Origin: Fimbriimonadaceae bacterium
GTDB taxonomy: Bacteria; Armatimonadota; Fimbriimonadia; Fimbriimonadales; Fimbriimonadaceae
DNA: 64,000 bases
Direction of reading: 5' to 3'
Assembly (NCBI GenBank): GCA_019454145.1
Contig: CP075366.1
Span: 1,219,564-1,283,563, forward strand
Shown: piece after piece, positions 14,419 to 19,178 of the stretch
Numbering within the stretch: position 1 is the stretch's first letter
How the letters are laid out: each line of letters starts with the position of its first letter
Made by a program: the position numbers and the translations under genes
Notes under the pieces: model-generated
Database searches by the model: none
What the model was told of the DNA's origin: nothing
Seen by the model: the letters and a program-made list of their open reading frames with translations, nothing else

Positions 14419-16683
14419 TTAAAAACCAAAGCCACCGGTTCCGCCGATGCTTTGACCCCGGCGGCCGGTTCCAAAATCGCTACCGAACGGAAGCGCCTTA
14501 ATGCGGATGTAGAACGCAATCTGCCGCCCCGAGCGGAACCCGCTCCTAAAGTCCGTTATTTCCAAAACGGCTTCCGTGCAGTGCAAATCATAAGAAATCT
14601 GGTACTGCTGAGCTTCTAACTGCTTGGTGTAGCCGTTGTAGAACAGAACCGCGTTGGTTGAAATCTGCCCCCATTTGAACCCTTCGATCTGCAAGCTTCC
14701 CGCCGCCCAAACCGCTCTTTGACCATCATAACGTGCTGAAGCTGAGACTCCTGTTCCTCCGATTTTGAACCGGCTGTCTGCCCTAAACAATCCCCAAGTT
14801 TGGTTGAAAGTATCGTAATTCGCCGCAAATTGAAAGTAAGAATCGTAGCCGTTGTAAGTAGAGGAGTAAGTGACGATCTGCCATGGAGTTTGCTGGCGCT
14901 CAATCGCTAAAACATCATAGCCAGTAGTTAACGAAGATGTCCAACCCTTGCCATGATCCACGTCGGCTCCAAACTGGAACACGTCATTTTGACCCACAAA
15001 ATCAATCGCTAACGGCGTGAACCCAAACTGCTTTTGATTGCGGTAAGAAAGCCGCAAGTTAGAGTTATAACCGAATTGATAGCGCAGGTTTCCGCCGTAA
15101 CCCAATACATATTGAGCCGTATCATCGCTATAAAGCCCTTGGCGATAAGCCCCGTTCCAGTCTAGTGAAAAACCTCGACCAAGTTCTTCCCGGCGATTAA
15201 GATCAGTCGCAAATGTCATACGAGTGATTGGATCACCCCCTGGGTTTCTGAGCTCACCGATACTTGCTTCGAGCCTGGTCGGCCAATTTCGTCCTGCCTT
15301 TGGGCCAAACAAACGAGTGGTATCGCTACGAAGCGTTAGCAGGGGCGTTCGGTCACTAGCACTGGAAAACGATTGGGAATCGCCGATCGGGATGCTCCGC
15401 TGGAAAAGCAAATCAGCGGCGAAGGAGCGTAGTTCTTGATAACCCTGGAACCGCACATCCACCCGCTCGCTTTCACTCAAAACCGATCCAGAGTTAATGC
15501 TTTGAGACTTTGACCAAGTTGTCGAAATGTTGGTGCGTGTGTTCTTGCCGAATTGGCGAACATCGGAAGCCGTAAGCGATTCCGTAACCGAAGTAAATGC
15601 CCCCGTATCCGAACTGTTCCGGAAATATCCGAGCGTTGACTGCCCCGCTCCAGATGGAATCGTGAGTTGAGCTCGGCTAGAAAGAAGTGAACTGGAAGGT
15701 GCGGTTAGGTAGTTGTTCCGCTGAAATCTTGCGTCTACATCCAGCCGAGATGCGCCGAGCAGTTGCTGATGGCGAAGATTGCCAACTAAAGAATTCTGCG
15801 TTCCCGTGAGTCCGTATGCTCCCACAGAACCGCTCATGAACTGAGTGTCATAGCCGAGTTCTCCGCCCACTCCAAATCCTAGCTTGGACATGTAATCCAA
15901 GCGGGTTTCAAACCTGTCTTCGCCCCGCAACGGCGTGATGTAGCGGGATTTTACAAAATAACCTTCGTCCTGGCTCTGCCCAAATTCAGGCAGGTAGCGT
16001 GGGCGGTCGTCCAGCAATGGAATGTAGAGATACGGCAAACCAAGCACACGCCTGCCAAGAATAACTAGCCCGAAATCTCGGAAAACGATCTTTTTGCCCG
16101 GTACAACCTCGGTACTGCCTGCATCGAAAGCGAAGTGAGGGTGATCCAGATCGCATGGAGTAAGCGTGCCATCGTAGAGATGAAAATGCGGATCGCGTAG
16201 GCTGGCTTTTCCGCCGCTGACATAAAACGGCCCGGTGGTCAATCCCTGCGTGCGCTCGGGAGTGATCACGGCTTTCCCTCCCTCTAACATATAGGTATCT
16301 TCCTTAAAATTTACTCTTATCGTATCGCCTTGGATAACATCGCCTTCACCCGTCAGGCTTCCTCCACCCGATAAAACATAGATGTCAGTCGCCGAATCTC
16401 CTTCGATTTTTGCCGCTTTTAATGTGTAGCCTTTGTATTCAAGATGGACATTCCCTTCAAAAACAGTCACAGTTCCGCGCGTGTAGGATTTATCCGCGTT
16501 GACGATTGTCAGCGGCTGTCTTGTCTGATTATTTGGAGGCGGCAAAACTCCTTGTTGGCTTGATCCGACGTCCTGGTTTGGGAGCAAATCTACTGAGGAA
16601 AGTATAGGTTCTTTGCCAGATTCTTGGGAAAATCCGATACCCGCAACACCTAAAATTGCTGCCAAGCAGAGACTCCGAATCAC
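14419..16683 (-). CDS. lptD: LptD-like LPS-assembly outer-membrane protein (OstA domain plus barrel)
   Basis: 754 residues. A signal peptide (CLAAILGVAGIGFSQ) leads to an OstA/LptA-like domain (~60-200: VTVFEGNVHLEYKGYTLKAAKIE, GEGDVIQGDTIRV, YMLEGGKAVITPE). Then comes the LptD junction region with YLYIPLLDDRPRYLPEFG and a long C-terminal part of amphipathic strands ending GFGF. In known systems LptD inserts lipopolysaccharide into the outer leaflet. The start is GTG 16683: GGAGG lies 6 bases upstream and GTGA overlaps the lptF/G stop; a longer frame to 16764 has no such signal. Last gene of the glnE-plsY-lpt chain. Confidence 0.85.
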   Translation of the reverse strand: MIRSLCLAAILGVAGIGFSQESGKEPILSSVDLLPNQDVGSSQQGVLPPPNNQTRQPLTIVNADKSYTRGTVTVFEGNVHLEYKGYTLKAAKIEGDSATDIYVLSGGGSLTGEGDVIQGDTIRVNFKEDTYMLEGGKAVITPERTQGLTTGPFYVSGGKASLRDPHFHLYDGTLTPCDLDHPHFAFDAGSTEVVPGKKIVFRDFGLVILGRRVLGLPYLYIPLLDDRPRYLPEFGQSQDEGYFVKSRYITPLRGEDRFETRLDYMSKLGFGVGGELGYDTQFMSGSVGAYGLTGTQNSLVGNLRHQQLLGASRLDVDARFQRNNYLTAPSSSLLSSRAQLTIPSGAGQSTLGYFRNSSDTGAFTSVTESLTASDVRQFGKNTRTNISTTWSKSQSINSGSVLSESERVDVRFQGYQELRSFAADLLFQRSIPIGDSQSFSSASDRTPLLTLRSDTTRLFGPKAGRNWPTRLEASIGELRNPGGDPITRMTFATDLNRREELGRGFSLDWNGAYRQGLYSDDTAQYVLGYGGNLRYQFGYNSNLRLSYRNQKQFGFTPLAIDFVGQNDVFQFGADVDHGKGWTSSLTTGYDVLAIERQQTPWQIVTYSSTYNGYDSYFQFAANYDTFNQTWGLFRADSRFKIGGTGVSASARYDGQRAVWAAGSLQIEGFKWGQISTNAVLFYNGYTKQLEAQQYQISYDLHCTEAVLEITDFRSGFRSGRQIAFYIRIKALPFGSDFGTGRRGQSIGGTGGFGF

Positions 16684-17750
16684 TCTTGCCTCCAGCCTAC
16701 GTAAACCGTTACCAAGCCAAAAATAACCGTCGGCGACCAAGCGGCTACCATTGGCGGAAGCCATCCGTTCTTCCCGACAATAGAGGTCATTACGATGTGG
16801 AAGTTAAAGAATATCCAGAGGAAAAACAAACTCATTAACAATCCCTGGAACGCTGAGCCTTTGGAGAAGCGGATTGCCAAAACCCCCGCCATCGCCGCAA
16901 AAACAACGCATGCAAATGAAATCGCCTGGCGCTCGTAAAGCGGTAGTTCAAGGCTTCGCGTATTACCGCCTGCCCTGCGCGACTCGTTGATCCTGCGAAC
17001 CAAATCAGCTGAAGCGACCGAATCAACTTGCCCGCCCACCATAAAATCTTGAATATCTATCCGTTGATTGATCACGACTTCGTCAACATCATAAATATCC
17101 ACGAATGCGTCATCCTGGAACATCCGCACACGCGGCTTTTGAATTGTCCAGACTCCTTTTTCATATGTGCCTTCGGGCGCGATATAAACCTGGAATTCGT
17201 TATCTTTTTGCCGCTCAAACAATAAGATGTCCTTTAGGATCATCGTATCGTCCTTCTCTGCTACTTCGCCAAACATCGCGACATACGGAGGGAGCTGGAT
17301 GGCTTTGTTCCGTTCAAATTGCGGCAGAATCGCCACGATATTGAGTTCGTTGGCGAGTTTGATCTTTTGCTTTTCTGCTCTCGGAATCAAAACATCCGCG
17401 TTAAAAAATGATGCGACCCCGAACAAAGCTCCGACAACAAAAACCATCCGCATAACACGCCGAATCGGAAATCCCGCCGTGCGCATCGCGGTAAGTTCCC
17501 CATCGCGAGCAATCCTGGAAATCGCCAAAGCTGACCCCATTGCCACGCCCATAGGAATCGTGTACTTAAGATAGGTGGGAACCAGCAAGATGATGTACTT
17601 GGCTATTGCTTCCGGCGGAACATTGTTCAGATTCAGCTTTTGGAATACAGCGATGAGCTCATTTGCCAAAAACAGCATCGCAGTCACGATTGTGCCGGCG
17701 ACCAAAGGTACAAATAACTCTTTCAGGATATATTGATCGAGCTTTTTTAT
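16680..17750 (-). CDS. LptF/LptG family LPS-export permease, apparent AUA start
   Basis: 356 residues if started at 17750. N-terminal helix, then YTIPMGVAMGSALAISRIARDGELTAMRTAGFPI, the LptF/LptG (YjgP/YjgQ) core, a periplasmic domain (~100-250) and three C-terminal helices. The family N-terminus (K-x-LDRYI-x-xEL) is present as KKLDQYILKELFVP, but the only codon that can start it is ATA at 17750. GGAGG sits 6 bases upstream, and ATA overlaps the previous stop as ATAA. The first ordinary start, TTG 17705, has no ribosome binding site and would remove 15 conserved residues. Whether it is F or G is unclear; only one permease lies here. Confidence 0.88.
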   Translation of the reverse strand: MKKLDQYILKELFVPLVAGTIVTAMLFLANELIAVFQKLNLNNVPPEAIAKYIILLVPTYLKYTIPMGVAMGSALAISRIARDGELTAMRTAGFPIRRVMRMVFVVGALFGVASFFNADVLIPRAEKQKIKLANELNIVAILPQFERNKAIQLPPYVAMFGEVAEKDDTMILKDILLFERQKDNEFQVYIAPEGTYEKGVWTIQKPRVRMFQDDAFVDIYDVDEVVINQRIDIQDFMVGGQVDSVASADLVRRINESRRAGGNTRSLELPLYERQAISFACVVFAAMAGVLAIRFSKGSAFQGLLMSLFFLWIFFNFHIVMTSIVGKNGWLPPMVAAWSPTVIFGLVTVYVGWRQE

Positions 17751-18541
17751 TTCTTTCCTCCGCCAATCAACCCGATCAAAATCATCACTCCGCCTGTTAA
17801 ACCTACCAGGGCCAATGCGATTTTAGCGACTGCGCCGCTTGTACCCACCTGCAAATACGGAAAAATCACCGCGATTGCCGCTAAAAGGCTCCATCCAAAA
17901 AACGCTAGCCGCCATTGGCTAAAACCTGCAACTCCACCGCGAACGAGTTCTAAAAGATGTTGCGATCCACAACCCGAGCACAAATATTGCCCTGGCCTAT
18001 TCACTCTGCCGCACTTTGGACAAGCAGTTCCGGGGGCAAGAGTCTGTGCGCCAAGGCTCAATCGCCACTTTGCAATCATCTTCCATTCGTCATCAAATAG
18101 GTTCTTGGGCTGACCGGAAATCGTTCCTTCCAAAAGCTGAACCGCTTGCAGAGTTCGACCTCGGCTCGCCAAGATTTCGCTCATCTTGACAATTGCGTAA
18201 ACATCGCCCGGTCGCATTGCCAACCGCTCGTAACAGCTACGGATCTGATCAATATCAATGGCGATCAACTCCCACTTACGTATTCCCTCGCGAACCGGAA
18301 AATAAAACGCCATTGTCAAACAGACGGCTAGGAACGGAATCCAGTTCAAGCCTGGGGCGGGCGGCTTAACGGTAGCGAATCCGAGCCCGAGGGCCAGGCA
18401 GACGGCGATGATACCAAACAGCGTGTCCACCTCATCCATGATCATCCACCCGACCATGCAGACCACCCACGCTGTGATCGGCAGCCAAACCAGCACCGAA
18501 AAAACGAGCCCGACTGAATTAGGATTGGTCGGCAGGTTCAA
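17747..18541 (-). CDS. Membrane protein with a zinc ribbon, within the lpt gene chain
   Basis: 264 residues, not recognised. Two helices at the N-terminus (~12-55) and one near 68-80, a soluble helical segment (~95-150, DIDQIRSCYERLAMRPGDVYAIVKMSEI, TPR-like), a zinc ribbon CPKCGRVNRPGQYLCSGCG (~174-192) and two C-terminal helices, ending GGGKK. The start is TTG 18541, supported by GGAGG 6 bases upstream; this overlaps plsY by 23 bases. It ends in ATAA overlap with lptF/G. Position suggests a role in envelope lipid metabolism or transport, but that is only context. Confidence 0.75.
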   Translation of the reverse strand: MNLPTNPNSVGLVFSVLVWLPITAWVVCMVGWMIMDEVDTLFGIIAVCLALGLGFATVKPPAPGLNWIPFLAVCLTMAFYFPVREGIRKWELIAIDIDQIRSCYERLAMRPGDVYAIVKMSEILASRGRTLQAVQLLEGTISGQPKNLFDDEWKMIAKWRLSLGAQTLAPGTACPKCGRVNRPGQYLCSGCGSQHLLELVRGGVAGFSQWRLAFFGWSLLAAIAVIFPYLQVGTSGAVAKIALALVGLTGGVMILIGLIGGGKK

Positions 18542-19178
18542 CTACTGCCTCCGACTTTTTGCTTGCGAAGCTAAATTTCTTCTCTTCGCCTTTAATGATT
18601 CGCTGTATGTTGGGGCGGTGCTTCCAAAATATAAATATTGCCAGAAGTGTGTAAACGATCCAAAACAATGGCGAGTTGGATTCCTTAAAGAAGAATCCTC
18701 CAACTACCATTGCGCTTACTGCAAACAAGCTGCTGAGGCTCACAATCTGAGTGAGGATCATAAGCACGATAAACGTAACGAGAACCGTTAGTCCAACTGG
18801 CCAAGCCGAACCCACCAGCATCCCAAGTCCAGAGGCAATCCCCTTCCCGCCTTTGAACTTGAGAAATGGACTCGCCATGTGACCGACCATCGCAAGGCCC
18901 CCGCAAATTAAGCCAAATTCAGCCAAAGAAACATTGAAAGGAGTTGGGACTGCCACTAAATACTTTGCACCCCATGCTGGCAAAAAGCTTTTCAGCACAT
19001 CTAAAACAAGAACAAAAATACCGGCTTTTTTTCCGAGCGTACGCCCAACGTTTGTCGCCCCGATGTTGCCACTCCCTTCTTTGAGGATATCAATCCCCAT
19101 TGATTTCGCTACGATCAATCCGAACGGAATCGCCCCAAGTAGATAGCTGGCGACCATTAAGATCCAACCGTTGATCAC
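18519..19178 (-). CDS. plsY: Acyl-phosphate glycerol-3-phosphate acyltransferase PlsY
   Basis: 219 residues, multipass. PlsY motifs are all present: GSGNIGATNVGRTLG, FKGGKGIASGLG and FWKHRPNIQRIIKGEE. It transfers the acyl group from acyl-phosphate to glycerol-3-phosphate in the inner membrane, the first step of phospholipid synthesis. Start is GTG 19178 (GAGGAG 8 bases upstream), overlapping the glnE stop as GTGA. The C-terminal ~20 residues past the family core are charged and variable. Confidence 0.95.
   Translation of the reverse strand: MINGWILMVASYLLGAIPFGLIVAKSMGIDILKEGSGNIGATNVGRTLGKKAGIFVLVLDVLKSFLPAWGAKYLVAVPTPFNVSLAEFGLICGGLAMVGHMASPFLKFKGGKGIASGLGMLVGSAWPVGLTVLVTFIVLMILTQIVSLSSLFAVSAMVVGGFFFKESNSPLFWIVYTLLAIFIFWKHRPNIQRIIKGEEKKFSFASKKSEAVVEPADQS

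Follow-up and report, generated by a model that had tools for sequence, protein, structure and literature searches.

Genetic organization of the lptF locus

The window, that is, the whole stretch of 64,000 nucleotides analyzed here, belongs to a Fimbriimonadaceae genome (G000) assembled as a single 2.76 Mb contig. Within it, a tightly packed run of minus-strand genes comprises a glnE-like gene (presumably so, as recognized from its sequence), plsY (18519-19178), a gene for a zinc-ribbon-like membrane protein (17747-18541), a gene for an LptF/LptG-family permease (16680-17750), and a gene for a protein with an LptA/LptD_N domain (14419-16683; weak match to PF03968). The GTG start of plsY shares bases with the stop codon of the glnE-like gene as GTGA, and the LptA/LptD_N-domain gene likely starts at GTG 16683, in a GTGA overlap with the stop codon of the permease gene. 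Thus, the 4-nt overlap appears to be the style of this operon. The gene preceding that of the permease is a 264-codon frame whose product carries a zinc-ribbon-like CxxC...CxxC motif and, in its C-terminal part, hydrophobic segments; no match to it was found in Pfam or NCBIfam, and homologues occur in 78 of 85 family genomes, adjoining lptF as a rule, a conserved gene order.

The permease frame is open on the minus strand between a stop at 17825-17823 and TGA at 16682-16680. Read from an ATA codon at 17748-17750, it encodes 356 amino acids, the N-terminus being IKKLDQYILKEL. Residues 6-354 match the PF03739 LptF_LptG profile (E 3.6e-61; 207.6 bits against a gathering score of 27.9), which places the protein in the LptF/LptG permease family. 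The NCBIfam equivalog cut-offs for LptF and LptG were both missed (TIGR04408, 135 vs 240; TIGR04407, 133 vs 230) and, therefore, the identity as F or G was left unassigned, lptF being used below as a label. The solved LptF/LptG example 6mjp_F has a similar N-terminal region, and the PF03739 match is full-length. The first-pass annotation had claimed that translation must start at ATA 17750 for the conserved family N-terminus to be included. Indeed, the motif K/R-x-LD-x-Y-I/V-x-x-E, present in nearly all of 70 family relatives, is matched by the encoded N-terminus.

The lptF frame lacks an upstream standard start codon

The proposed AUA start codon (17748-17750, minus strand) shares bases with the TAA stop of the upstream gene (17747-17749, minus strand) as ATAA, and is preceded by the Shine-Dalgarno (SD) sequence GGAGG (17757-17761, minus strand), separated from it by the 6-nt spacer AAAGAA. 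Direct reading of the sequence agreed with the earlier description of both elements, as well as with the statement that no ATG, GTG or TTG occurs in the lptF frame from the upstream stop (17825-17823) to a TTG at codon 16 (17703-17705, minus strand). The sole other near-start codon upstream in this frame is an ATT at 17816. Conserved coding sequence precedes the TTG by 45 nt, and the locus contains no ATG, GTG or TTG able to start the conserved protein. Predicted pairing with the anti-SD was -9.5 kcal/mol at the ATA, a value equalled by 3% of 2,000 random sites, whereas 5' of TTG 17705 it was -2.4 kcal/mol, equalled by 69% of random sites, in line with the claim that this TTG has no ribosome site.

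Comparison with a sister genome locates the onset of coding

The nearest genome found, G004 (JAHBTE010000001.1), is a Fimbriimonadaceae metagenome-assembled genome from a separate assembly, in which LptF shows 98% protein identity to that of the window, with nucleotide identity between both genomes of about 87-90% (10-13% divergence). G004 retains the GGAGG, the ATA and the TAA at the lptF site. The two genomes differ at 3 of the 18 nt that precede the ATA, and these differences are all silent in the upstream gene, but each replaces a residue in the lptF frame (D/N, R/W, and E/K). The reverse is observed at lptF codons 8, 12 and 14, where the changes are silent in lptF and mostly non-silent in the upstream frame. 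Over the whole of lptF, 116 silent codon changes were counted vs 6 replacements. Because the silent changes switch from one frame to the other between codon -1 and codon 8, the comparison indicates that the onset of lptF coding lies within this interval, at or near the ATA and before the TTG. Codons 1 to 7 carry no substitution, which sets the resolution at about 8 codons, and the substitutions taken alone fit a start at the ATA or a codon or so away.

Start codons of lptF across relatives and origin of the ATA

Among 70 family members, start and stop codons at the lptF site normally overlap as XTGA, with ATG, GTG or TTG as the start codon, aligned with the ATA of the window or beside it. ATA together with TAA was found in G000, in G004 and, independently, in G034, which belongs to a different genus; it was absent from the other relatives examined. 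Consistently, a search of 291 genomes of the phylum with the pattern ATA-Lys-x-Leu-Asp-x-Tyr matched only these three. Other departures from the norm involve different codons: two genomes of one genus, G064 (L062) and G065 (L060), show an ATC after GGAGG as the likely start, G060 and G013 have a CTGA overlap with an apparent CTG start, and G029 (L085) may use GTT, an uncertain case in which a TTG is available 12 codons upstream. As controls, plsY and the upstream gene were surveyed as well, with less precision because their N-termini are less conserved; two likely CTGA starts were noted, one in plsY of G041 (L107) and one in the zinc-ribbon gene of G040 (L130).

The first-pass annotation had explained the ATA by a single G-to-A change in an ancestral ATGA overlap, which is one of two possible routes. 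In its favor, XTGA at the register of the ATA is the family norm, and G003 and G006 have GTG at this very position. In the LptF tree, however, G000 and G004 group with G005, with G001, G002, G007 and G003 adjacent, and G005, G001, G002 and G007 carry an XTG one codon upstream, the codon aligned with the ATA being one for Ile. Thus, whereas derivation from an ancestral ATG by one G-to-A change is possible, the ATA may also have been the second codon of a frame that lost the start before it, as is conceivable from the arrangement in these close relatives.

Alternative readings of the site

A mechanical ORF call would choose TTG 17705, the first standard start codon, giving a protein 15 residues shorter. 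Nevertheless, besides its weak SD pairing, this start would drop conserved residues 1-15, and with them the N-terminal motif and the part that aligns to the 6mjp_F N-terminus, and it would leave upstream of the TTG the three codons with silent-only changes, so that we consider it very unlikely. An N-terminal extension from ATT 17816, which is in the lptF frame, or from another upstream near-start codon is hardly credible, given that all three sister differences downstream of this ATT alter the lptF-frame residue while being silent in the upstream gene. An assembly or sequencing error hiding a true XTG codon might be suspected, since the record of G004 (L042) is a metagenome-assembled genome and that of the window may be one too. 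However, the same ATA and TAA are present in two separate assemblies that are 10-13% divergent, and ATA/TAA appears again in another genus, making such an error very improbable.

A programmed -1 frameshift in the last codons of the upstream gene, fusing the zinc-ribbon protein to LptF, would yield an identical substitution pattern. The lptF frame is indeed -1 relative to the upstream frame, the C-terminal part of the upstream protein contains hydrophobic segments, and the G004 junction (GGA GGA AAA AAA TAA) offers both a slippery run of A and an SD-like stimulator. In G000, however, the corresponding codons are AAG AAA, a poor slip site, the G034 junction (AGC TCA TAA) has no slippery run, and in relatives the codon overlapping the upstream stop is as a rule a standard start, all of which renders the fusion unlikely. 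The start at the ATA is instead supported by its conservation, the switch of silent substitutions around it, the SD sequence, and the separate ATAA case in another genus. Taken together, these data sustain the initial proposal, and translation of lptF very probably begins at an AUA fused to the upstream stop.

Proposed mechanism and comparison with known systems

E. coli-type systems use AUA poorly as a start codon; it is one of the weakest, and AUA starts have been described, to our knowledge, for only a handful of bacterial genes. In E. coli, infC starts at AUU, and IF3 discriminates such starts; this gene shares with lptF the third-position mismatch of AUH codons, although its codon is AUU and not AUA. 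The arrangement at lptF suggests that ribosomes terminating at the UAA of the upstream gene would be held by the GGAGG located 6 nt before the AUA, and that a 30S or 70S ribosome would then re-initiate on the overlapping AUA with fMet-tRNA, whose anticodon does not pair with the third base of this codon. The weakness of the codon could be offset by the strong SD together with delivery coupled to termination, and the expected outcome would be a low, upstream-dependent and IF3-sensitive synthesis of LptF. Among the 30 of 41 tRNA loci of G000 that were examined, no tRNA-Ile with a UAU anticodon was found. A predicted tRNA-SeC gene was also observed in this genome (L209:151-245), suggesting selenocysteine use.

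Several elements of this scheme have precedents. In a reconstituted system, IF3 disfavors weak third-position pairs (PMC10158994). According to a study on coupled genes, a tight stop/start overlap favors re-initiation, which at native E. coli gene pairs needs very short stop-start distances (PMC10666635). The termination-reinitiation overlaps given there for the -4 arrangement, ATGA and GTGA, involve the same 4-nt stop/start overlap, and lptF relatives likewise use XTGA, whereas in lptF of the window the overlap is ATAA, in which the UAA stop makes an AUA start necessary. AUA starts are reported for S. aureus infC, ccpN and citZ from Ribo-Ret and/or reporters, with AUA reporters reaching about 10-30% of AUG expression; the infC and ccpN cases are described as conserved or long known (PMC13009471). 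These genes, like lptF, combine AUA with an upstream SD, and low initiation is expected. Fusion to an upstream stop is not described in the passages on these genes, whereas the Fimbriimonadaceae AUA overlaps TAA as ATAA; furthermore, the S. aureus starts were tested by experiment, and the present one, a probable start supported by comparison, belongs to a transporter permease. Although AUA starts as such were already known, their overlap with a stop as ATAA appears to be new, as does the repeated occurrence of AUH starts within one lineage. The recurrence of a comparatively supported AUA start fused to UAA in a conserved outer-membrane biogenesis gene suggests that the 4-nt overlap can persist once the third-position G is lost.

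Further apparent AUH starts within the lineage

A coding-onset scan was carried out over about 0.75 Mb of G000 against G004. Antisense shadow ORFs gave many false candidates, which were removed by an overlap filter, leaving 641 conserved non-overlapping ORFs. Four of them were real genes with coding before any standard start, namely lptF and three others with AUC or AUU; apart from that of lptF, no ATAA overlap lacking a nearby XTG was seen in the sample. An M20/DapE-like peptidase (G000:C1:1451802, L265; L266 in G004) has an ATC after GGGAG (SD -9.9), relatives having ATG at this site. A signal-peptide protein (G000:C1:1492705, minus strand, L196) shows ATC in G000 and ATT in G004, directly after an in-frame TAG, with AGAGGTG as SD (-11.7). 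The remaining gene is hemW-like (G000:C1:1177022, L235, L163), with ATC in G000, G004, G001 and G002 and ATG, GTG or TTG in most other relatives, its first ATG being located past the CxxxCxxC motif. Its start is less certain because no SD precedes the ATC; G001 has an upstream GTG as well, and the transcript is possibly leaderless.

Two further candidates were identified. The infC gene of G000 (L151, around G000:C1:633300-633491) is devoid of an ATG, GTG or TTG start and has an ATT with an SD of -9.3, so that AUU appears to be its start, as in E. coli. When G001 was scanned against G000 at the protein level, most candidates were shadow ORFs and one good lead was retained: a PEP-CTERM-like protein of G001 (G001:C1:2191959, plus strand, L304) which appears to start at an ATA that immediately follows an in-frame TAA, AGAGG being located upstream; the G000 homologue has Met.

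In a published comparison of 36 genome triplets, one of 61,358 ancestral AUG starts had changed to AUU and none was listed as changed to AUA or AUC (PMC5622118), a figure derived from annotated starts, among which AUH codons are rarely allowed, and hence not a matched baseline. The excess of AUH starts in this lineage over that figure is suggestive. Tentatively, the genus, and perhaps the family, might be lax on start codons, with all three codons AUA, AUC and AUU serving as starts in roughly 0.5-1% of conserved genes, including housekeeping genes such as lptF and hemW, and with ATAA as a stable variant of ATGA coupling, a view to which we give somewhat less than even credence. The other AUH starts provide a testable case for unusually permissive initiation, or for a deliberate use of weak starts, in the lineage, and gene callers limited to ATG, GTG and TTG will mis-start genes of this kind.
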